Shown here: positions 793-60,106 of the stretch, piece after piece | Layout: each line of letters opens with the position of its first letter | How positions within the stretch are numbered: position 1 is the stretch's first letter | DNA from: an uncultured Ruthenibacterium sp. | Lineage (GTDB): Bacteria > Bacillota > Clostridia > Oscillospirales > Ruminococcaceae | Reading direction: 5' to 3' | Length of the DNA stretch: 64,000 nucleotides | Assembly: GCA_944386555.1 (NCBI GenBank) | Contig: CALXBN010000030.1 | Span: 1-64,000, forward strand | Translations under genes and position numbers: made by a program | The notes under the pieces: generated by a model | Seen by the model: the letters and a program-made list of their open reading frames with translations, nothing else | What the model was told of the DNA's origin: nothing | Databases searched by the model: none

Positions 793-2913
793 TTATTGCG
801 GTTCCGGGGAATCCGTCCCCTCGGCGGCAGGCTGTGCCGCCGGCGGTTCGGCGCCCGCCTGCTGTGCTGCAGCTTGTGCATCGTCCTGCGTGCCGGGTGC
901 ACTGGCGCGCTCTACCGCACGCTCGGCTGCCGCATCGTGGGGGGCCTGGGGTTCTGCCTCCTGGGAAGGCAGGGTCCCGCCGGTCATCAGCGTGCGGAAC
1001 TCCTCGCCCGTCAGCTTTTCCCGCTCCATCAGTGCGCCGGCCACCAGATGCAGCTGGTCCATATGGTCGCTGAGGATCTTGCGGGCAGTCTCATAAGCCT
1101 CGTCCAGCATCTCGCGGATCTCCTGGTCAATCTCTGCCGCCACTTCTTCCGAATAGCCCCTCCCCGCGCCGAAATCACGGCCCAGGAAGGTCTCGTTGGG
1201 ATTCTGGCCATACACCACCGGGCCCAGCCGTTCACTGAAACCATAGCGCATGACCATGGCCTTGGCAGTGCTGGTAGCCCGCTCCAAATCGTTGGAGGCA
1301 CCGGTGGAGATATCGTCCAGCACCAGCTTTTCAGCCACACGCCCGCCCAAAAGGCCCACGATCTCGTCCTCCATCTGATGCTTGGTGACGTAATTCTTGT
1401 CCTCTGCGGGCAGGCTCATGGTATAGCCGCCGGCCATGCCGCGAGGCACAATGCTGATCTCGTGTACGGGGTCGGCCGTTTTGCTGTAGTAGTGGGTAAT
1501 GGCGTGGCCTGCCTCGTGATAAGCCGTCAGGCGCTTCTCTTTCGGAGTCACCACCCGGCTGCGCTTTTCGGGGCCGGCCACCACCTTGATGCTGGCTTCC
1601 TCGATATCCTGCTCGGTGATGGCCTTGCGCCCGCGCTTGGCCGCCAGCAGGGCGGCCTCGTTTACCAGGTTTTCCAGGTCAGCCCCCGAGAAGCCTGCGG
1701 TGGATTTGGCCACCGTGCGCAGGGACACATCCGGTGCCAGAGGCTTGTTGCGGGTGTGCACCTTCAGGATCTCCTCCCGGCCCTTCACATCGGGCAGGCC
1801 CACATACACCTGCCGGTCAAACCGGCCGGGACGCAGCAGGGCTTTGTCCAGGATATCCGCCCGGTTGGTGGCAGCGATGACGATGACGCCCTCATTGGCG
1901 GCAAAGCCGTCCATCTCCACCAGCAGCTGGTTCAGCGTCTGCTCCCGCTCGTCATGGCCGCCGCCCAGGCCGGTGCCGCGCTGGCGGCCCACAGCGTCAA
2001 TCTCGTCGATGAAGATCACCGACGGCGCGGCTTTTTTGGCCTTGTCAAACAGGTCGCGCACGCGGGAGGCGCCCACGCCCACGTACATTTCCACAAAATC
2101 CGAGCCAGACATGGTGAAAAAGGGCACGCCAGCCTCGCCGGCCACTGCACGGGCCAGCAGGGTTTTGCCGGTGCCCGGAGGGCCCACCAGCAGCACACCG
2201 TGGGGGATGCGCGCCCCCAAGGTGTTAAATTTCTGCTGGTTTTTCAGGAATTCGACGATCTCCTCCAGCTCTTCCTTTTCCTCATCGGCGCCGGCCACAT
2301 CGGCAAAGGTGGCCTTGCGGCCCTGCTCGGCCTGGTCCTTCACTTTGGCACGGCCCACGTTCATGGCCTTGCCGCCGCCGGACTGGGTGTAAACAAAGTA
2401 ATAAAAGGCAGCCATGATGATGACGCTGAGCAGGATGAAGGGGATCATGGTGACCCAGAAGGGCGTCTCGGTGGCGGGGATGAAGTCACAGCTCCAGGTC
2501 TGGCCGGGGTTGTTGGTCTCGTAAATTTCTTTGTAGCGGTCCAGATTGTTGACGAACTGATTGAGCAGCGGCATGGTGTAGAGGATCTGCCGCTGGGTGC
2601 CGTTGACGTATACCTCGGACTGCTGGCTGCCGAACACCTGGCCCCATCCGGCAGCCTGCTGTGCCTGCTGGTCCTCTGCCTCCTGCTGCGCCAGCGCCTG
2701 GCTGGCATCTTCCATGAGGGTGATCTCCATCGCGCCGTTGGACAGATTCAGCGTGGTGTCGGCCACCTCGCCGCGCTCATAATAACCGATGATCTCGCTG
2801 TACTTGTAGGACTGGGTGGCATCGCTGCTGGTGCTGGTCATCACAAACATCAGGATGAGCAGCCCCAGGATCAGCAGCAGCACCAGCCCGTTGGTTCCTC
2901 TGCGTTTGTTCAA
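793..2913 (-). CDS. ftsH: ATP-dependent zinc metalloprotease FtsH
   Basis: This is the membrane-anchored AAA+ protease that degrades misfolded membrane proteins and regulators. An N-terminal membrane helix (about residues 10-26), an extracytoplasmic segment and a second helix (about 153-176) precede the AAA+ domain. The Walker A motif GPPGTGKT is at 244-251, followed by the Walker B FIDEID. The peptidase zinc motif HEAGH is at 466-470. The C-terminal tail is Pro/Ala/Glu-rich and disordered. The start is a TTG at 2913 with an AGAGGA site six bases upstream. A longer frame to 2979 would add 22 residues unlike the family. With the TTG start the protein has 706 residues, slightly longer than usual. 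It follows hpt, a conserved Firmicute arrangement. Confidence 0.95.
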
Positions 2914-29136: not shown

Positions 29137-30276
29137 TCAGGAGAGCCGGGCCTTGAAATCTTCATAGCCGAACTGCCGGATCAGCCGGCAGCGGCCGGCC
29201 CCGTCCCGCCATACGATGGAGGGCAGCGGCATCCCGTTGAACGTGTTGTTTTTCACCATGGTATACAGGGCCATGTCCTCAAAGACCAGCACGTCGCCGG
29301 GGGCCAGGGGGCGGTCAAAAGAATAATCCCCGATCACATCCCCCGCCAGGCAGGTGGGCCCGCCCAGGCGGAAGGTATAGGGCTTCTCACCCGGCTGTCC
29401 TGCGCCCTGCAGGGGCGGGCGATAGGGCATTTCCAGCACGTCCGGCATGTGGCAGGCGGCAGAGGTATCCAGAATGGCGATATCCATGCCATTGTGCAGG
29501 GTATCCAGCACGGTGGTGTATAAAAAGCCGGCATTCAGCACCACGGCCTCCCCCGGCTCCAGGTAAATATCCACCCGGTGGGCCTGCCGCAGGCGCTGCA
29601 CAATGCCCACCAACCGCTCCACGCCGTAGCCCGGGCGGGTGATGTGGTGCCCGCCGCCCAGATTCAGCCAGCGCAGGGCGGGCATCCGGGCCAGCATCGG
29701 GGCAAATTTGGCTTCAAAGGCGTCTGCCGTGGCCGCCAGGGCGTCGGAATCCTGCTCGCACAGGGTGTGGAAATGCAGGCCGTCCAGCAAAGGGAACACG
29801 TCCGGCGCCTCAGACAGGGCTGCAGCGGTCGTGCCCAGGCGGCTGCCGGGGGCGCAGGGGTCGTAGATCGCGTGGCCCTCCTGGGTGGAGCATTCCGGAT
29901 TCACCCGCAGGCCGACCTGTTTTCCGGCCGCCCGTGCCGCCGGGCCAAAGCGCCGCACCTGGGCCGGGGAGTTGAAGATCACGTGGTCGGCGTACTGCAG
30001 GATCTCATCAAACTGGTCGGCCCGGTAGGCGGGGCTGTATACATGTACCTCGCCGCCGAACTTTTCCCGGCCCAGGCGGGCCTCGTACAGGCCGCTGGCC
30101 GCCGTACCCGACAGGTATTGGCGCAGCAGCGAGTAGCAGGAAAACATGGAAAAAGCTTTCTGCGCCAGCAGGATCTTGCACCCGGCCCGCCGGGCCACAT
30201 CGGCCAGCAGCACCAGGTTGCGCCGCAGCAGCGCTTCATCCACCAGATAGTAGGGCGTGGCAAACGGTTCCGCCAT
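29137..30276 (-). CDS. nspC: Carboxynorspermidine/carboxyspermidine decarboxylase
   Basis: NspC is a PLP enzyme of the alanine-racemase fold that decarboxylates carboxyspermidine (or carboxynorspermidine) to spermidine. ILLAQKAFSMFS carries the PLP lysine K40. GLRVNPECSTQEGHAIYDPC and FHTLCEQDSDAL are typical of the family, and the C-terminal part has FEDMALYTMVKNNTFNG. At 379 residues it is full length. It is the last of six polyamine genes and starts three bases after the dehydrogenase stop, so both enzymes of this route are made together. A terminator follows within 50 bases. Confidence 0.93.
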   Translation of the reverse strand: MAEPFATPYYLVDEALLRRNLVLLADVARRAGCKILLAQKAFSMFSCYSLLRQYLSGTAASGLYEARLGREKFGGEVHVYSPAYRADQFDEILQYADHVIFNSPAQVRRFGPAARAAGKQVGLRVNPECSTQEGHAIYDPCAPGSRLGTTAAALSEAPDVFPLLDGLHFHTLCEQDSDALAATADAFEAKFAPMLARMPALRWLNLGGGHHITRPGYGVERLVGIVQRLRQAHRVDIYLEPGEAVVLNAGFLYTTVLDTLHNGMDIAILDTSAACHMPDVLEMPYRPPLQGAGQPGEKPYTFRLGGPTCLAGDVIGDYSFDRPLAPGDVLVFEDMALYTMVKNNTFNGMPLPSIVWRDGAGRCRLIRQFGYEDFKARLS

Positions 30277-30279
30277 GGC

Positions 30280-31539
30280 TCAGTCCACCAAAACGGGGTG
30301 GTCGTCCACCTGCCAGGGCAGGCCCCACCGGTTCAGGGCGTCCATATAGGGATCCGGGTCGAACTGTTCCACGGTGTACACACCGGGCTTGTTCCATTTG
30401 CCTGTCAGCAGCATCATGGCGCCCACCATGGCGGGAACGCCGGTAGTATAGCTGATGGCTTGGCTGCCCACCTCTTTGTAGCATGCCTGATGGTCGCAGA
30501 TATTGTAGATATAGGCCGTTTTGGGCCGGCCGTCCTTTGTACCGGTAAAAATGCAGCCGATGTTGGTTTTACCCACGGTGCGCGGGCCCAGGGACGCGGG
30601 ATCCGGCAGAAGGGCCTTCAGGAACTGGATGGGCACGATCTCCCGGCCCTCGTACAGTACCGGCTCGGTGGACAGCATACCCACATTCTCCAGGCACTGC
30701 ATGTGGGTGAGGTAACTCTGGCCAAAGGTCATGAAAAAGCGGATGCGCTTGACCCCCGGGATATTCTTGGCCAGGGACTCGATCTCCTCGTGGTGCAGCA
30801 GGTACATATCCTTTTGGCCCACACCGTCGAAGTCGTACTCCCGCTTGATGCTCATGGCCGGCACTTCCACCCAATGGCCGTTTTCCCAATAGCTGCCGGG
30901 GGCCGAAACCTCCCGCAGGTTCACCTCGGGGTTGAAGTTGGTGGCAAAGGGATAGCCGTGGTCGCCGCCGTTGCAGTCCAGGATGTCAATGGTATCGATG
31001 GTGTCGAACAGGTGCTTTTGCGCCCAGGCGCAGTAAGCCTGGGTGACGCCCGGGTCAAAGCCGGTGCCCAGCAGGGCCGTCAGGCCGGCGGCTTTGAATT
31101 TCTCCATATACTCCCACTGGTAGCTGTAATCGAAGTAAGCCGAGAACCCCTCCTCCCTGCAGCGCTTTTCGTAGCGGGCACGCCAGGCGGGGTCGTCCAG
31201 TTTCTCCGGCTCGTAATTGGCGGTGTCCAGATAGTTCACGCCGCAGGCCAGGCATGCGTCCATGATGGTCAGATCCTGATAAGGCAGGGCGATATTCATC
31301 ACAAGGTCCGGCTGGTAGGCGTCAATCAGTGCCTTCAGCTGCTTTACATCGTCGGCGTCCACCTGAGCGGTGGTGATACGGGTCGAAGTTTTCCCGGCCA
31401 GATCCGCCGCCAGGGCGTCGCACTTTGCCTTGGTGCGGCTGGCGATGCACAGGTCGGTGAATACCTCGCTGTTCTGGCAGCACTTGCGGATGGCCACATT
31501 GGCCACGCCGCCGCAGCCGATGACTAATACTTTACTCAT
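30280..31539 (-). CDS. Carboxynorspermidine/carboxyspermidine dehydrogenase (saccharopine dehydrogenase family)
   Basis: The enzyme reductively condenses aspartate semialdehyde with putrescine (or diaminopropane), using NADPH, to make carboxyspermidine. The Rossmann motif VLVIGCGGVANVAI lies at the N-terminus. GTGFDPGVTQAYCAWAQK and DILDCNGGDHGYPFATNFNPE match the LYS1-like family. It has 419 residues. I chose the ATG at 31539 behind GGAGGG; the longer frame to 31713 runs inside speB. It is 50 bases downstream of speB, the largest gap in the operon, and is paired with nspC. Confidence 0.92.
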   Translation of the reverse strand: MSKVLVIGCGGVANVAIRKCCQNSEVFTDLCIASRTKAKCDALAADLAGKTSTRITTAQVDADDVKQLKALIDAYQPDLVMNIALPYQDLTIMDACLACGVNYLDTANYEPEKLDDPAWRARYEKRCREEGFSAYFDYSYQWEYMEKFKAAGLTALLGTGFDPGVTQAYCAWAQKHLFDTIDTIDILDCNGGDHGYPFATNFNPEVNLREVSAPGSYWENGHWVEVPAMSIKREYDFDGVGQKDMYLLHHEEIESLAKNIPGVKRIRFFMTFGQSYLTHMQCLENVGMLSTEPVLYEGREIVPIQFLKALLPDPASLGPRTVGKTNIGCIFTGTKDGRPKTAYIYNICDHQACYKEVGSQAISYTTGVPAMVGAMMLLTGKWNKPGVYTVEQFDPDPYMDALNRWGLPWQVDDHPVLVD

Positions 31540-31589: not shown

Positions 31590-32441
31590 TTACTCCAGCG
31601 CCAGCAGCATTTCCCGCACGACTTTGCAGGCCGTGATGGTGGAAACGCCGCTTTGGTCGTAGTGCGGGGCCAGCTCGTTCACATCGCAGCCCACCACTTT
31701 GGCCTGCCGGCACACCAGGGTGACGGCCCGGCGCAGAGCGTCAAAGGAAACGCCGCCGGGTTCCGGCGTGCCGGTGCCCGGAAAGGCCGATGGATCCAGC
31801 ACATCCAGGTCCACCGTGAAGTAGACCGGTTTGCCTGCGAGCTTCTCCAGCGTCTGCTCCAGCCCCTCGAAGTCAAAACGGCGGGTGGCCACATGGCCTT
31901 TCCCCCACTCAAACTCCGCCTTCTCCCCCGAACGGATACCGAACTGGAAGATGCGCCCGTCGCCCACCAGCTCCCAGCAGCGGCGCATCACGCAGGCATG
32001 GGACAGGCCGGCACCCAGGTAGTCATCCCGCAAATCGGCGTGAGCGTCGAAGTGAATGATATGCAGCTCGGGATACTGCTTGGCCGCAGCCCGCACGGCC
32101 CCCAGCGTCACCAGATGCTCGCCCCCCAGCATAAACGGGCGCTTGGCCCGGGCCAGGATGTGGCGAGTGCGCTGCTCGATACGGGCCAGGGCCTTCTGGC
32201 TGTCGCCGAAGCACAGCTCCAAATCGCCCAGGTCGATCACATGGGCATCCTCCAGGTCCCGGTCCTGATAGGGGCTGTAGCTCTCGATGCCATAGCTCTC
32301 CTGGCGGATGGCTGCGCTGCCGAAACGCGCGCCCGGCCGGTAAGAGGTGGTGGAGTCAAAGGGAGCGCCGAACAGCATGGTGTCGGCGAAGTGGGCGCCC
32401 TTGTCACAGCCCATAAACACCTGGACATTCTTACTCAACAT
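31590..32441 (-). CDS. speB: Agmatinase (agmatine ureohydrolase)
   Basis: SpeB hydrolyses agmatine to putrescine and urea. The binuclear manganese ligands are visible as GGEH (106-109), DAHAD (132-136) and DLDVLDP (211-217), the ureohydrolase signatures. The length of 283 residues is normal. It overlaps the end of speE by 11 bases. With the arginine decarboxylase in the same operon it gives the arginine-agmatine-putrescine route. In some bacteria the paralog acts on aminopropylagmatine, and this cannot be excluded here. Confidence 0.94.
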   Translation of the reverse strand: MLSKNVQVFMGCDKGAHFADTMLFGAPFDSTTSYRPGARFGSAAIRQESYGIESYSPYQDRDLEDAHVIDLGDLELCFGDSQKALARIEQRTRHILARAKRPFMLGGEHLVTLGAVRAAAKQYPELHIIHFDAHADLRDDYLGAGLSHACVMRRCWELVGDGRIFQFGIRSGEKAEFEWGKGHVATRRFDFEGLEQTLEKLAGKPVYFTVDLDVLDPSAFPGTGTPEPGGVSFDALRRAVTLVCRQAKVVGCDVNELAPHYDQSGVSTITACKVVREMLLALE

Positions 32442-33282
32442 CTTTCAACAGCTCCTCTACATAGGCCGGCAGGCAGAACGCCCCCCGATGCAGGTTGGTG
32501 GTATAGTACCGGCAGGCCAGGCCCCGGGCGTTCCAGCGCTCCGCGTCCAGGTCCCGCAGGGGATGATACCGCTTTGAGGCAAAGCCGAACAGCCAGTGCC
32601 CCGAGGGATAGGTGGGGATATGGGCCTGATACACCTTGGCGATGGGAAAGCTCTCCACGATGCGCTTGTGGGCGCGCTGGGCAGCCAGGGCATCGGCTGC
32701 GTAAAAAGGGCTTTCGTGCTGGTTGACCAGCACGCCGTCTGGCCGCAGGGCTTTGTAGCAGCTGCCGTAAAATTCTTTGGTGAACAAGCCTTCGCCGGGG
32801 CCGAAGGGGTCGGTGGAGTCCACAATGATCAGGTCGTAGCAGTTCTCCCGGGAGCGCACAAAGCGCACACCGTCCTCATAAAAGATCTTCACCCGCTCAT
32901 CCTCCAGGCGGCACGCCGTCTGGGGCAGATACTGCTTGCACACGGCCACCACCTGGGGGTCGATCTCCACCATGTCGATGCGGGTGATGTCGGCATAGCG
33001 GGTCAGCTCCCGCACCACGCCGCCGTCCCCGGCGCCGATCACCAGCACATCCCGCACGGCGGGGTGCACCGCCATCACGGGGTGGGTGATCATCTCATGG
33101 TAAATAAACTCGTCCTTTTCCGTCAGCATCATATAGCCGTCCAATGCCAGGAAGCGGCCGAATTCCGGGGATTCAAACACGTCAATGCGCTGAAACTCGC
33201 TGCGGCCGACATACAACTGCCGGTCCACCCGGATGGAAAGCTTCACGTCGGGGGTCTGCGCCTCCGAATACCAAAAATCCAA
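32431..33282 (-). CDS. speE: Spermidine synthase (polyamine aminopropyltransferase)
   Basis: SpeE transfers the aminopropyl group from decarboxylated SAM to putrescine. The Rossmann motif VIGAGDGG is at residues 81-88, with DGYMMLTEKDEFIYHEM before it (the usual DG.xQ...E.xYHE region) and IVDSTDPFGPGEG after it. The length of 283 residues is normal for the bacterial enzyme. It lies between speA and speB and needs SpeD, encoded first in the operon, for its substrate. Confidence 0.95.
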   Translation of the reverse strand: MDFWYSEAQTPDVKLSIRVDRQLYVGRSEFQRIDVFESPEFGRFLALDGYMMLTEKDEFIYHEMITHPVMAVHPAVRDVLVIGAGDGGVVRELTRYADITRIDMVEIDPQVVAVCKQYLPQTACRLEDERVKIFYEDGVRFVRSRENCYDLIIVDSTDPFGPGEGLFTKEFYGSCYKALRPDGVLVNQHESPFYAADALAAQRAHKRIVESFPIAKVYQAHIPTYPSGHWLFGFASKRYHPLRDLDAERWNARGLACRYYTTNLHRGAFCLPAYVEELLKDVE

Positions 33283-33315: not shown

Positions 33316-34755
33316 TCAGGCCAGCACATTCAAGCGCAGGATCTGCGCGTCTTCCGGGCCGGTGAGCTGGCAGCCCTTTTCCTTGGCATAACGGATGTAA
33401 TCCAGGATGCGGCGGGTGATGCGCTCGCCGGGGGCCAGGATGGGGATGCCCGGGGGATAGCACATTACAAATTCACTGCACACCCGGCCCTCGGTGTCCT
33501 CGATGGGCAGGGACTCCTTTTCCGCGTAAAACGCTTCCTGGGGCGTGGCAGCCACGTCAGGCTCGATGTACTCCTGCCGCATCAGCCCGCCTTTGCGCCC
33601 GCCGTAGCGCCGGCGCACCTCGGCCAGGGCGCTCACCAGGCGTTCAATCTCCTGCGGGCGGTCCCCGATGGACAGATACGCCAAAATATTGCCCAAATCG
33701 CCGAACTCGATCTGGATATCGTACTCATCCCGCAGCAGATCATATACTTCAATGCCCGCCAGCCCCACATCCAGCGTATAGACTGAGAGCTTGGTCTGGT
33801 CGAAATCGAACACGCTGTCGCCATTGCACAGCTCGCGGCCGTAGGCGTAGTAGCCGCCGACACGGTTGATCTCCTCCCGGGCATAGCGGGCCAGCTCCAG
33901 CACCCGGGCAAATTCCTGCCGGCCCCGCAGGGCCAGGTTGCGCCGGCTGATGTCCAGGCTGGCCAGCAGCAGGTAGGAGGCGCTGGTGGTCTGGGTGAGG
34001 TTGATGATCTGGCGCACATAGCCCTGGTGGACGGCAGGGCCTGTCAGCAGCAGACTGCTCTGGGTAAGGCTGCCGCCGGATTTGTGCATGGACACGGCGG
34101 CCATGTCGGCCCCGGCAGCCATAGCGGAGACTGGCAGGCCTTCGCCGAAGTAGAAGTGGGTACCGTGCGCCTCATCGGCCAGGCACAGCATGCCGTGGTC
34201 ATGGGCCATCTTTACAATGGCCCGCAAGTCTGAACATACGCCGTAGTAGGTGGGATTGTTCACCAGCACTGCCTTGGCGCCGGGATGGGCGGCAATGGCC
34301 TTTTCCACATCCGACAGGCGCATGCCCAGGCTGATGCCCAGCCGGTCGTCCCCGGCGGGGTCCACATACACAGGCACGGCGCCGCACAGCACCAGCGCAC
34401 CCATGACGCTGCGGTGCACGTTGCGCGGCAGAATGATCTCCTCGCCGCGCTTGACCACCGAAAGGATCATGCTCTGCACGGCGCTGGTGGTGCCGCCCAC
34501 CATCAAAAAGGCCCCTGCCGCACCGAATGCCTCGGCAGCCAGCCGTTCGGCATCCCGGATGACGGATACCGGGTGGCACAGATTGTCCAGCGGCTTCATG
34601 CTGTTCACATCCATGGACACACACTTGTGCCCCAGCAGGGCTGCCAATTCCGGGTTGCCGCGGCCACGCTTGTGGCCGGGCACGTCAAAAGGCACCACCC
34701 GCATCTGTTTGAACCGTTCCAGCGCCTCATAGATAGGCGCACGGGTCTGATCCAT
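33316..34755 (-). CDS. speA: Arginine decarboxylase, aspartate-aminotransferase-fold type (SpeA of Bacillus)
   Basis: The 479-residue enzyme is of the Orn/Lys/Arg decarboxylase major-domain family. DVPGHKRGRG opens the protein, LADEAHGTH contains the PLP-binding D194, and VSMHKSGGSLTQ holds the Schiff-base lysine K225. The size is close to Bacillus SpeA (about 490) and lacks the N-terminal wing of the E. coli enzymes. Arginine is the favoured substrate because agmatinase is encoded in the same operon; lysine or ornithine cannot be ruled out from sequence. Its ATG overlaps the speD stop (TGATG). Confidence 0.92.
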   Translation of the reverse strand: MDQTRAPIYEALERFKQMRVVPFDVPGHKRGRGNPELAALLGHKCVSMDVNSMKPLDNLCHPVSVIRDAERLAAEAFGAAGAFLMVGGTTSAVQSMILSVVKRGEEIILPRNVHRSVMGALVLCGAVPVYVDPAGDDRLGISLGMRLSDVEKAIAAHPGAKAVLVNNPTYYGVCSDLRAIVKMAHDHGMLCLADEAHGTHFYFGEGLPVSAMAAGADMAAVSMHKSGGSLTQSSLLLTGPAVHQGYVRQIINLTQTTSASYLLLASLDISRRNLALRGRQEFARVLELARYAREEINRVGGYYAYGRELCNGDSVFDFDQTKLSVYTLDVGLAGIEVYDLLRDEYDIQIEFGDLGNILAYLSIGDRPQEIERLVSALAEVRRRYGGRKGGLMRQEYIEPDVAATPQEAFYAEKESLPIEDTEGRVCSEFVMCYPPGIPILAPGERITRRILDYIRYAKEKGCQLTGPEDAQILRLNVLA

Positions 34756-35510
34756 CAGCGCTCGCTCCCTTCAAAAATCTCCAGCATTTCCCGGCGCAGT
34801 GTGCGCTCGATATTCCAGCGTTCCTGCCGCGACAGCTGTCCGGCATCCTCCCGGAACAAGTAGTTTTCCACGTCGATCTGCCGCACCATCATACGGGTGT
34901 GGAACAGATTGGCCGCGGGCAGGTTCATATCCACCGCCCGGTAGCAGGCCAGCACTTCCGGGCTGATAAAGTCGCGGATGGAGGAGATGTCATGATCCAA
35001 AAACAGTTTGTGTCCGTCCATATCCCGCGTAAAGCCCCGCACCCGGTAATCCATGGTGATGATGTCCGAGTCGAAAGAGCCGATCAGGTAATCCAGCGTA
35101 TTCAGCGGCGAAATGACCCCGCAGGTAGCCACATCGATGTCCACCCGAAAGGTGGCCAAACTGGTACCCGGATGGTATTCGGGATAGGTATGCACGGTGA
35201 CATGGCTTTTGTCCAGATGGGCCAGCTGGGTCTCACCGGCGGGCAGCTGCATTTCTTCGGCAATCAGCACCGTTACCGATGCGCCCTGGGGCTCATAATC
35301 CTGCCGGGCAATATTCAGCACTTTGGCACCGATCATATCGGTCAGGGTCGTGAGGATATTGGTCAGCCGCTGGGAGTTGTACTGTTCGTCGATATAAGCG
35401 ATGTACTCCTGCCGCTCAGCGGGGGTTTTTGCGAAACACACGTCGTAGATATTGAAGCTCAGCGCTTTTGTCAGGTTGTTGAAACCGTACAGCTTCAGCT
35501 TTCCGGCCAT
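34755..35510 (-). CDS. speD: S-adenosylmethionine decarboxylase proenzyme (E. coli class)
   Basis: SpeD makes decarboxylated SAM, the aminopropyl donor for SpeE. The self-cleavage site is in [12 protein letters not shown], where S102 becomes the pyruvoyl group; this longer form (251 residues, [16 protein letters not shown] near the middle) is the E. coli class rather than the 125-residue Bacillus class. I chose the ATG at 35510, where [13 protein letters not shown] matches the family start. The frame is open to 35687 but runs through a terminator. The ribosome-binding site is formed by the end of a run of 13 G. It is the first gene of the polyamine operon, behind a long leader. Confidence 0.93.
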
Positions 35511-35516
35511 GCTGCT

Positions 35517-35529
35517 CCCCCCCCCCCCC
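35517..35529. repeat. Homopolymer of 13 C (13 G on the speD coding strand)
   Basis: The run ends seven bases before the speD start codon and itself supplies the purine-rich ribosome-binding region. Such tracts are prone to slipped-strand length change and also to sequencing error. Confidence 0.9.
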
Positions 35530-35542
35530 TTCCCCAGACGGC

Positions 35543-35575
35543 AAAAAAACAGGCGATGCGCGCACGCATCGCCTG
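35543..35575 (-). terminator. Intrinsic terminator in the speD leader (attenuator candidate)
   Basis: On the minus strand an 11-bp stem (CAGGCGATGCG and complement) with a four-base loop is followed by seven T. It lies 33 bases upstream of the speD ATG and downstream of the operon promoter. No gene upstream on this strand would need it as an ordinary end. Confidence 0.85.
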
Positions 35576-35916
35576 TGAGACAGTCGGTATTGCAGCAAAG
35601 CGGCGGGCCGCGCCCGCCGGCCCCCCGCCCGGGCATAATGCCGCCCAAAGCGCCCAAAGGGCCCTGCAGCCTGAAAACAGAGTTCATTCAGCAAATACTG
35701 TTACCACTCTTATTGACCGTTTTACAAGTTGATGCACACGCAATGGTTATAAAGTAACCAACTTATAAAATTGAGCTTTTAACTCAATCAATAATGGCGG
35801 CTTTATGCCGCCGATCGGCAGTTGACCCGGCTGTCCGTATGGCCTTGCCCCTTCCGGGGGGTCGTGAACATATTTGCATGGATACTCTGTCAAAGCTCAT
35901 ATCACATGTCAGGTTT

Positions 35917-35945
35917 ATTGTATCGGAAGGCGCGGAATTTGTCAA
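35917..35945 (-). promoter_or_regulatory. Promoter of the polyamine operon
   Basis: On the minus strand a perfect TTGACA is followed after 17 bases by TACAAT. Transcription would start near 35910, giving a leader of about 400 bases. Confidence 0.78.
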
Positions 35946-36039
35946 GAAAAAGTTTTCCCCGTCCCCTTTCACAGCAAGCGAAGGCAGCCTGCGCGATACC
36001 GGGCCGGTGCGGCGGGCCCTGAAAGCCGGGCTGCCAGCC

Positions 36040-36068
36040 TTGCACCGGGCCGCTTTGCATGATACAAT
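36040..36068 (+). promoter_or_regulatory. Promoter of the small GNAT gene
   Basis: TTGCAC and TACAAT are separated by 17 bases, with the start codon 35 bases after the -10. It is divergent from the polyamine operon promoter. Confidence 0.65.
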
Positions 36069-36102
36069 GGCCTTACAGCATACAAGACTGGAGGTATCCC
36101 CC

Positions 36103-36387
36103 ATGCCCTTTGAAACCCAGGACAATCAGATCCTGTACACCGTAGACGGCCGGACTCTGGCCCGGGTGACATTCCCGAAGACCGGCCCGGACACCGTGGA
36201 CATCGACCACACCTTTGTGGATCCCTCGCTGCGCGGCCAGGGTATCGCCGGCCAGCTGATGGAGCAGACCGCCGCGGCCCTGCGGCGCACTGGGCGCCGG
36301 GCTGCCCTGAGCTGCAGCTACGCCCGCCAGTGGTTTGAGCGCCACCCCGAATGGCAGGATGTACTGGATACAGGCGCCGGTGCATAA
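36103..36387 (+). CDS. YjdJ-type short GNAT N-acetyltransferase
   Basis: The 94-residue protein is a minimal GNAT domain of the YjdJ group: HTFVDPSLRGQGIAGQLMEQ is the acetyl-CoA-binding motif, and LSCSYARQWFERHPEWQDVL is the C-terminal signature (compare the usual CSYxxxxFxxHPE). Members of this group include the human GNAT-like NATD1; their substrates are unknown. The ATG at 36103 follows TGGAGG by eight bases. The frame is open to 35794, but that stretch lies upstream of the promoter and is non-coding. Confidence 0.87.
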   Translation: MPFETQDNQILYTVDGRTLARVTFPKTGPDTVDIDHTFVDPSLRGQGIAGQLMEQTAAALRRTGRRAALSCSYARQWFERHPEWQDVLDTGAGA

Positions 36388-36402
36388 ACCGCGCCCGTGT
36401 GC

Positions 36403-36450
36403 AAAACGGCCGGCAGGGCATTTCCCCGTCAAGGGAAAGCCTGCCGGCCG
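36403..36450 (-). terminator. Terminator hairpin between the small GNAT and the 84-residue protein gene
   Basis: A long stem (CGGCCGGCAGG pairing with CTGCCGGCCG, then TTTCCC with GGGAAA across a small bulge) lies between convergent genes. The minus strand has TTTT after it, the plus strand lacks a T-tract. Confidence 0.65.
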
Positions 36451-36480
36451 GTCACATTTCCGCTGCGCGCCAAAACCTGT

Positions 36481-36735
36481 TCAGCCCTGCGGGAACTGTT
36501 CCTTGCTGATCAGGCGGCTGCGCACGGTCTCCTCGTTTTCCCACACGCCGTCCGGGGTCACCGTCTGCCGCGCCTGGGCGTAGTACAGCGCACCGTGCAG
36601 CTGTCCGTCCCGTTTGGCCTGTGTTTGCCGGCGCACCCAGTCACCGCCGGGCTGCGGTGCCGGGCCGGCCCGCCCGTGGACATCGTTGGGTTTGTTGTCC
36701 AAAGTGTGGTTCACAAAATCTTCCAGGTCATTCAT
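36481..36735 (-). CDS. Small hypothetical protein (84 residues)
   Basis: I do not recognise this protein. It is hydrophilic, rich in Gln, Asn and Arg, without a membrane segment, signal peptide or cysteines. It opens with an acidic helix (MNDLEDFVNHTLDN) and ends ENEETVRSRLISKEQFPQG. A ribosome-binding site GGGAGG lies nine bases before the ATG, but it is buried in the stem of the hairpin at 36744-36773. It may be co-transcribed from the lipoprotein genes upstream. It is probably a true gene because of the good start and the terminator after it. Confidence 0.55.
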   Translation of the reverse strand: MNDLEDFVNHTLDNKPNDVHGRAGPAPQPGGDWVRRQTQAKRDGQLHGALYYAQARQTVTPDGVWENEETVRSRLISKEQFPQG

Positions 36736-36743
36736 ACAAAATC

Positions 36744-36773
36744 GCCTCCCGGGGCCAGTATTCCCCGGGAGGC
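36744..36773 (-). promoter_or_regulatory. Hairpin enclosing the ribosome-binding site of the 84-residue protein gene
   Basis: An 11-bp perfect stem (GCCTCCCGGGG and its complement) with an eight-base loop contains the GGGAGG site in its 3' arm on the minus strand, followed by GATTTTGTATG. It can act as a leaky terminator of the lipoprotein operon and as a block to translation of the next gene. Confidence 0.6.
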
Positions 36774-36779
36774 AGCCTT

Positions 36780-37340
36780 TTATGTGCTTGGGGCCGGCGG
36801 CCGTAGCTCAAACGTGTCGCTGACGCTTACCGTCCCGCCATCCTCCAGCTGTACCGTCAGGCTCAGCCGGTATACGCCGGCGCTGTCAGGCCCCAGCTGC
36901 CACCAGGACAGCGGCGCCTGCCCTACCACTTGGTCTGCCTGCAGCGGGTCCGGTGTTCCGCAGAACAAGGCGCTTTCGGCATAAGGCACCTTGTCCCAGC
37001 TGCCGTCTGCGAGCCAGCGCTCCAGCTCCGGGGCATTCACATAGCTCTGCCCCTGGCCGGATTGGTTTTCAATGGTATACACCACCATTACATCCGCAGC
37101 CGTATCATCCGGCGGCCAGGTCAGCTGTTTTTCGTCCACCGTCAGATCCACCGGCACGGTCAGCATCTCCTGGGCCGGCAGCGATGCCACGGTGATGGCG
37201 CTGCCCGCCGCGGCGTGTGCGGTATCAGCCGCCGTTTGCCGAATGGCCGCCGCGGCACAGGCTGTCAGCAGCGCCAGGCAGGCAATGCCCACAGCCAGCA
37301 GCCGCACCCGGCTGCCGCTTTCACGAATGATCTGCCTCAT
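36780..37340 (-). CDS. Putative lipoprotein of unknown function
   Basis: The 186-residue protein starts with a basic N-region and a hydrophobic stretch ending in the lipobox ALLTAC28, so it is probably lipid-anchored outside the membrane. The mature part is predicted mostly beta (VPVDLTVDEKQLTW, VMVVYTIENQSGQGQSYV, YRLSLTVQLEDGGTVSVSDTFEL), suggesting an Ig-like or similar sandwich domain. I do not recognise a named family. The ATG at 37340 follows AGGAGG and overlaps the DUF4349 gene by 20 bases, so the two are coupled. Confidence 0.7.
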   Translation of the reverse strand: MRQIIRESGSRVRLLAVGIACLALLTACAAAAIRQTAADTAHAAAGSAITVASLPAQEMLTVPVDLTVDEKQLTWPPDDTAADVMVVYTIENQSGQGQSYVNAPELERWLADGSWDKVPYAESALFCGTPDPLQADQVVGQAPLSWWQLGPDSAGVYRLSLTVQLEDGGTVSVSDTFELRPPAPST

Positions 37341-59786: not shown

Positions 59787-60106
59787 TTTGTTCGCCTCCT
59801 TAAAATTTTCCGTGGGGCGGATCGATAAATACTGAACACTGCGCCGGGTGTTTCACGCCTTGGCATCAGAAAAGCCGGTGAACCGACATGCAGTTCCCCC
59901 GGACAGACCTTCGCAAAGTGCGCGGACATTGGTTGAGCCGAGACAGGTCATCGGCCAACGTATCCCTTTGCATCCAGTATTCTTTCGCCCGGTTCTTTGA
60001 TCGGACATACTCGGCGGAAAAACCGGTGTGAGTAACTACACCGCAACCTCCCGCGTCAACGCATATCGCGGCCCGTGCCCCGAAAAGCTCGGGCCAATCG
60101 CAGCCA
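59787..60106 (-). promoter_or_regulatory. Leader of the S10 operon (about 320 bases)
   Basis: No convincing gene lies between the promoter at 60113-60141 and rpsJ. The minus strand is rich in local hairpins, such as GGCCCGAGC/TTTTCGGGGC near the 5' end and CCGGTTTTTCCGCC-type pairings. S10 leaders in other bacteria carry ribosomal-protein autoregulation sites. I cannot assign the ligand from sequence. Confidence 0.5.

Follow-up and report, generated by a model that had tools for sequence, protein, structure and literature searches.

What is the function of a leader of several hundred bases that lies between a promoter and a polyamine operon and ends in a terminator directly before the first gene? 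The question is raised by a 64,000-nucleotide stretch of DNA from an uncultured Ruthenibacterium sp., referred to here as the window. An earlier note on this sequence proposed conditional termination, possibly sensing a polyamine, SAM or arginine.

The leader and its operon

The genes that the earlier note had assigned to a polyamine operon are confirmed by profile searches. The leader elements and the operon are located as follows.

35917-35945 (-): promoter, TTGACA at 35945-35940, 17-base spacer, TACAAT at 35922-35917
35543-35576 (-): intrinsic terminator, stem 35576-35549 of 12 pairs by scanner, loop of 4, T run to 35543
34755-35510 (-): speD, S-adenosylmethionine decarboxylase, first gene of the operon (TIGR03331, 383 bits)
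33316-34755 (-): Orn/Lys/Arg decarboxylase, speA-type (PF01276, 218 bits)
32431-33282 (-): speE, spermidine synthase (profile match)
31590-32441 (-): speB, agmatinase (TIGR01230)
30280-31533 (-): carboxynorspermidine synthase-like gene with saccharopine dehydrogenase domains (NF043000, 411 bits, below the curated cut-off of 800)
29137-30276 (-): nspC, carboxynorspermidine decarboxylase (TIGR01047, 434 bits)

Between 29137 and 35510 on the minus strand, the SpeD/SpeE route and the carboxynorspermidine synthase-like/NspC pair stand in one operon, placing two triamine routes together.

The promoter is present where it had been described, with 11 of 12 consensus matches. It is the sole promoter-like site in 34900-37200 (shuffle mean 1.2), and its score, taken alone, is not beyond chance. 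A sigma-70-like site is found upstream of the same RNA in 105 of 121 non-redundant related leaders, compared with 19 of 121 shuffles. The promoter is credible because this site is conserved in the relatives and keeps its position relative to the RNA. From the end of the -10 box to the P2 stem described below, the related leaders have a median of 52 bases, which puts the start of transcription at or near the 5' strand of the closing stem P1.

The strong terminator was likewise found as claimed, with a stem of 12 pairs by scanner where 11 had been counted by eye; the speD ATG at 35510 lies 33 bases past it. About 340 bases separate promoter and terminator in the window without a conserved ORF. 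No upstream gene on the strand appears to need this terminator, as had been stated: the nearest promising minus-strand ORF upstream of the leader ends at 36481, and a GNAT-like gene at about 36103-36387 has the opposite orientation. A run of about 13 G residues occupies the ribosome-binding region between the terminator and the speD start (35515-35527, minus strand); it could be length-variable or an assembly artefact.

A terminated leader that precedes a metabolic operon is also what ribosome-mediated attenuation through a leader peptide, or a T-box, would produce. The comparison of 122 related leaders agrees with the claim that the leader holds no convincing gene: ORFs of at least 12 codons preceded by a Shine-Dalgarno sequence occur in 22 of the 122, at scattered positions, and no short ORF is conserved. 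The window leader has no T-box match, RF02440 being the only Rfam family above its cut-off there, and Rfam scans of 11 sampled related loci gave neither a T-box nor any further family above cut-off besides RF02440. Attenuation by a leader peptide or T-box is thus most improbable and already largely refuted.

A conserved RNA domain that extends beyond RF02440

The RNA that could not be named from the sequence alone, and for which an Rfam scan had been advised, is RF02440 (SpF59_sRNA), a 54-position model with the Rfam title 'Streptococcus sRNA SpF59 (ldcC RNA)'. The match at 35864-35815 scores 62.8 bits against a gathering cut-off of 37.2, and the window leader belongs to the family by this score. 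In 35000-36500, searched at gathering and up to E 5, the leader has no other family above cut-off, and no SAM riboswitch match appears at gathering or up to E 5. Matches to isrB and sR44 are below cut-off and were dismissed as chance.

In S. pneumoniae, the family member F59, also named SN20, srn235 and Spd_sr49, is described in the available text of three papers as an RNA of about 318-327 bases, for which one study gives 82, encoded between SP0915 and SP0916 and upstream of SP0916 (PMC2887815, PMC3395615, PMC12323649). SP0916 is now regarded as the arginine decarboxylase speA, according to the accessible part of PMC7990898, which makes 'ldcC' an outdated gene name. The alias 'ldcC RNA' suggests that someone had earlier linked the RNA to this gene. 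An FMN switch was guessed for the pneumococcal RNA in the text available from PMC2887815.

Comparison of about 180 leaders reveals that RF02440 covers just one branch of a domain of about 215-250 bases. This domain is closed by the long-range stem P1 and carries the branches P2, P3 and P4-P6. In the window, its elements are as follows.

35884-35890 (-): P1 outer, 5' strand ACAGAGT, pairs with 35683-35677
35867-35877 (-): P1 inner, 5' strand GCAAATATGTT, pairs with 35702-35691
35815-35864 (-): RF02440 match, comprising P2 with its apical hairpin, P2b and the conserved GGCCATACGGACAGCCGGGTC
35796-35812 (-): P3 hairpin
35710-35794 (-): P4, TTATTGA 35794-35788 with TCAATAA 35716-35710
35771-35787 (-): P5 hairpin
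35720-35770 (-): P6, TTTTATAAGTTG 35770-35759 with CAACTTGTAAAA 35731-35720, enclosing P6a and P6b
35724-35737 (-): antiterminator strand GTGCATCAACTTGT, inside the P6b/P6 3' strand, complementary to the terminator 5' arm
35691-35702 (-): P1 inner, 3' strand AACAGTATTTGC, identified by partner permutation
35677-35683 (-): P1 outer, 3' strand ACTCTGT, identified by partner permutation
35678-35795 (-): second conserved domain (model R1, outside the Rfam model), P4 to P7 region, 117.4 bits

A total of 184 loci was collected. The core pattern, with up to four mismatches, is missing in four of them (L045, L180, L182 and L184), which were examined separately, and L137 was excluded by eye as a chance match with no anchors and unrelated genes. 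After the core, four anchors recur among 179 loci when mismatches are allowed: TTATTGATT in 170, TTTATAAGTTG in 164, ACTTGTGAAACGGTCAATAAGAGT in 171 and TTGCTATATAGACTC in 170. All anchors and the required length are present in 162 leaders (L161 lacks the P2 start), of which 122 remained after redundancy removal. Because the variable stems align badly and whole leaders aligned globally with MAFFT gave too many gaps, stems were tested by anchors and partner permutation. In this test, the duplex energy of each strand with its own partner is compared with the energies obtained when partners are dealt among the 122 non-redundant leaders.

Both parts of P1 are partner-specific. The outer part has a mean duplex energy of -14.36 against -10.45 (sd 0.26) for dealt partners (z -14.8, 0 of 500 permutations), and the inner part -7.27 against -5.10 (z -11.7, 0 of 500; z -13.4 in a second test). 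Crossed P1 controls from the same sequences gave z -0.9 and 0.1, and such null controls are the main safeguard for tests that are uncorrected for phylogeny. The apical arm of P2 reached z -28.9, and double changes among the 122 leaders number 48 at the P2 closing pair and 6 in P2b. The halves of P3 covary (z -14.5), P5 has four of its five pairs changed on both sides (z -18.7), and P6b reached z -11.3. An alignment, A1, was made of 103 of 109 reference sequences, leaving out L044, L087, L117, L118, L128 and L147 (L117 and L147 for no special reason). In A1, 93.3% of cells pair, and both-sided change is found at 13 of 35 pairs compared with 5.7 in shuffles (0 of 500).

By this comparison, P1, P2, P3, P5 and P6b covary, and the predicted P4/P6 core is nearly invariant, as are the P4 strands themselves. 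The P4 and P6 core has little covariation support within the main set; compensating changes in P4 are visible by eye in the divergent leaders L206, L208, L214-L216 and L222. The leader therefore has the conserved, structured 5' domain with covariation that is expected of a riboswitch. Lack of conserved structure in related leaders, which had been named as grounds for giving up the proposal, was looked for, and a conserved, covarying RNA was found instead.

Two further pairings were considered and set aside. A pseudoknot of GCAnAUAAU with AUUAUUUGC beside a local hairpin, P7 (AAGAGU/ACUCU), makes pairings compete for one strand. The nested long-range P1 is preferred because it is partner-specific, whereas permutation showed no partner specificity for P7 (z 0.0), which could represent an alternative state. 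A CGG/CCG contact of the RF02440 core with TGCCGA is invariant and hence uninformative.

RF02440 is found in 49 of 197 genomes of the window's family and in 18 of 398 sampled genomes of its phylum. It also occurs in 5 of 198 genomes of the order of L143, three of them above cut-off, and in 4 of 149 genomes of the phylum of L100 (L100 is labelled Spirochaetes, and its own genome is counted). Among 14 control genomes, only Lactococcus lactis has it. A pattern scan of named genomes gave at least 118 stretches, and the matches listed include Faecalibacterium prausnitzii, Blautia schinkii, Gemmiger, Flavonifractor, Acidaminococcus, Phascolarctobacterium, Paenibacillus and Neobacillus.

R1 is a covariance model of the second half of the domain, with 126 positions and 35 pairs, and does not overlap RF02440. 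The window's match is the sole one in its own genome. R1 is found in 25 of the 398 phylum genomes, including all 18 with RF02440, and the seven additional loci have a polyamine gene next, speD or speA. The RF02440 branch is absent from two of the seven, L207 and L209, which makes the 3' half the more universal of the two. These two loci (from 1501, plus strand) belong to one genus. Their speD leaders keep the inner P1 pairing and the ACTTGTGAA...AATAAGAGTAGTAAAAGTA block, and a clear terminator is kept at least in L207; they represent a natural minimal form of the RNA. RF02440 is filed as a 54-position Streptococcus sRNA, whereas here it is one branch of a larger domain, with an antiterminator and a polyamine regulon, in Bacillota and some Spirochaetota.

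One strand shared by the domain and the antiterminator

In 96 of 122 leaders, the stretch that separates domain and gene contains a terminator-like hairpin, compared with 18 of 244 dinucleotide-shuffled regions. The scan found none in the other 26, several of which show one by eye (L008, L015, L019 and L026). The 5' arm of the terminator covaries with the P6b/P6 strand ending in ACTTGTGA (final z -8.2, 0 of 1000, n=96; best window z -9.2). Covarying windows start 18 to 6 bases before ACTTGTG, and the other tested windows range from -1.9 to 2.2. The 3' arm of the terminator, put through the same test as a control, gave z -0.9. The correspondence can be read from the sequences: leaders with CACATCAACTTGT tend to have terminators that start with ACAAGTGATGTG or a near match, and leaders with CACAGACTTG have terminators with CAAGCTGTG or a near match.

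In the window, the duplex that GCATC and CTTGT (within 35735-35724) form with the terminator sequence ACAGGCGATGC has an energy of -11.4 kcal/mol. The unconstrained minimum free energy fold (-148.7) differs from the consensus fold. With P4, P6 and the terminator enforced, the energy is -148.0, within 1 kcal/mol of the optimum; enforcing the antiterminator is worse, at -138.8.

P6 and the antiterminator are mutually exclusive because the terminator 5' arm has its complement in the 3' strand of P6. The comparison of leaders supports this exclusion as it does the fold, and the leader has the expression platform of mutually exclusive structures that is looked for in a riboswitch. Since one strand serves both P6 and the antiterminator, the folded domain goes with termination. 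The proposal of conditional termination is thereby supported: the RNA is conserved and covaries, most relatives have a terminator, and the antiterminator pairing of the domain with the terminator 5' arm covaries as well.

These elements suggest a mechanism. By the comparison, a transcript from the promoter at 35945 folds into one domain closed by P1, whose 5' strand comes close behind the promoter, with P2 (the RF02440 core), P3, and P4 holding P5 and P6 inside it. When a ligand is bound, the folded domain would let P6 keep the shared strand, so that the terminator can form and the operon is switched off. In the absence of ligand, this strand would pair with the 5' arm of the terminator and polymerase would read into speD. 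If binding stabilizes the domain, ligand would turn the switch OFF, as is to be expected where synthesis and import genes are controlled.

Downstream genes and the candidate ligand

Genes were tallied at the 166 loci with at least 700 bases downstream; 13 shorter loci were omitted. The first assigned gene is speD at 66 loci, a speA-type decarboxylase at 47, potA at 28 and a carboxy(nor)spermidine synthase at 23; two loci, L048 and L049, have no assignment. The median distance from the core to the start codon is about 335 bases. The potA assignment was checked at six loci, where spermidine/putrescine models of NCBIfam were top in each; the curated cut-off of one model is exceeded at four and not reached at L120 (a cut-short reading) and L143. 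In relatives from Paenibacillus and Bacillus, the RNA precedes the genes for carboxy(nor)spermidine synthase and decarboxylase. In the window's family, 35 genomes have both R1 and speD, and the RNA is directly upstream of speD in all 35. The operon can do without the RNA, since 46 of 81 speD-bearing genomes of the family have no R1 match.

Altogether, the first gene is polyamine-related at 164 of 166 loci, a consistent association with the genes of one metabolite. This bears on the reading implied by the Rfam label, in which the terminated leader acts in trans as an sRNA that targets other mRNAs. Short transcripts (SpF59/F59/SN20/srn235) have indeed been detected in S. pneumoniae, as described in the available text of the three pneumococcal studies cited above. 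A terminated leader would, however, resemble an sRNA in such screens. The RNA lies in the same sense just upstream of polyamine genes at these 164 loci, and the terminator covaries with a strand inside the RNA, which is the pattern that a cis attenuator should show. The reading as a trans-acting sRNA is very unlikely, but the leader may have a second role in trans.

The SpeD/SpeE route, the carboxyspermidine route and import by PotABCD have a single metabolite in common, spermidine. On the gene contexts and on pathway knowledge, we infer that spermidine is most likely the ligand. The leader would then be a transcription-terminating riboswitch for a polyamine end product, with termination when this product is abundant, a reading to which we give a probability of roughly two in three. 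Among the guesses made from the sequence alone, a polyamine is the best match. The case for SAM or arginine is poor: potA and the genes for carboxy(nor)spermidine synthase and decarboxylase also follow the RNA, and neither compound is a metabolite that these contexts share.

The riboswitch could instead bind another compound of the pathway, such as putrescine, agmatine, cadaverine/aminopropylcadaverine, SAM or decarboxylated SAM. The commonest first genes, speD (66 of 166) and speA-type (47 of 166), are compatible with this, and Pot transporters carry putrescine too. The SAM compounds are, however, foreign to the CANSDH/nspC (23 of 166) and potABCD (28 of 166) contexts, and putrescine is a substrate of the routes formed by the predicted enzymes and not their end product. 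Such a ligand seems unlikely. Equally unlikely is attenuation by a trans-acting protein that binds the RNA and sets the choice of terminator or antiterminator by polyamine status. The terminator/antiterminator architecture is as compatible with a protein ligand as with a small one, but simple autoregulation by a gene product is unlikely where the first genes are as unrelated as speD, speA, CANSDH and potA. In addition, the conserved domain exceeds 200 bases and has many invariant positions, which is more than most protein-binding RNA sites need.

The spermidine riboswitch reading can be set against known systems. The only validated bacterial spermidine riboswitch found in print is a rare variant of SAM-I, represented by an alignment of 13 representatives in the available text of Salvail et al. 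2023 (PMC10853860). Polyamine genes downstream and an intrinsic terminator are common to both RNAs, and the OFF logic demonstrated there is predicted here. The window leader has no SAM-I match and a different architecture from that described, and is not a member of that class. An ABC-leader upstream of potABCD in Haemophilus somnus and Pasteurella multocida is likewise an attenuator-like leader before a polyamine importer, in the accessible account of PMC2965389; it is gammaproteobacterial and is likened to the window RNA by leader type alone. The odc1, potE and speF motifs are also leader RNA candidates near polyamine genes, from alphaproteobacteria and Veillonella, and differ in structure from the window RNA by the descriptions available (PMC8632094, PMC11477304).

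A literature search of partial coverage, with few subscription papers or preprints, found no account of the RF02440 RNA as a polyamine riboswitch; it may have been recognized earlier under the alias 'ldcC RNA'. Of the large folded leader common to many bacteria, a small piece is already catalogued, as a streptococcal sRNA. On balance, these comparisons favor, with somewhat less assurance than the riboswitch reading itself, the view that there is a second class of spermidine riboswitch, unrelated in structure to the first and far more widespread, of which RF02440 captures a fragment. Such a class would have a long-range closing stem and would turn off synthesis, by both the SpeD/SpeE and carboxyspermidine routes, as well as import, in Bacillota including gut commensals and in some Spirochaetota. 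If true, direct sensing of polyamines by RNA is widespread, occurring in Faecalibacterium, Blautia and Paenibacillus among others and, according to published work, in S. pneumoniae. It would also explain a so-called small RNA that, in the available text of PMC12323649, was still among the putative sRNAs in 2025, when two others were marked as cis regulators. Assays on the Rfam fragment by itself are expected to fail, since it contains neither P1 nor P4-P6 nor the expression platform; a fuller construct is supplied by the present domain.

Several observations concern neighboring sequences. Degenerate RF02440 matches in L048 (about 1515-1960, plus strand, 39.8 bits) and L049 (about 1500-1760, plus strand, 34.9 bits) are followed by a C39-like peptidase gene with a lipoprotein-signal-like N-terminus and not by polyamine genes; a variant with another ligand is possible. 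In L118 (1554-1952, minus strand), a gene for a P-II-like regulator lies between the RNA and potA. In the window, a strong G+C-rich hairpin at 36743-36774, terminator-like on both strands, lies between two minus-strand ORFs, and an S10-Clostridia ribosomal protein leader (RF03136, 44.2 bits) is found at 59985-60067 on the minus strand.
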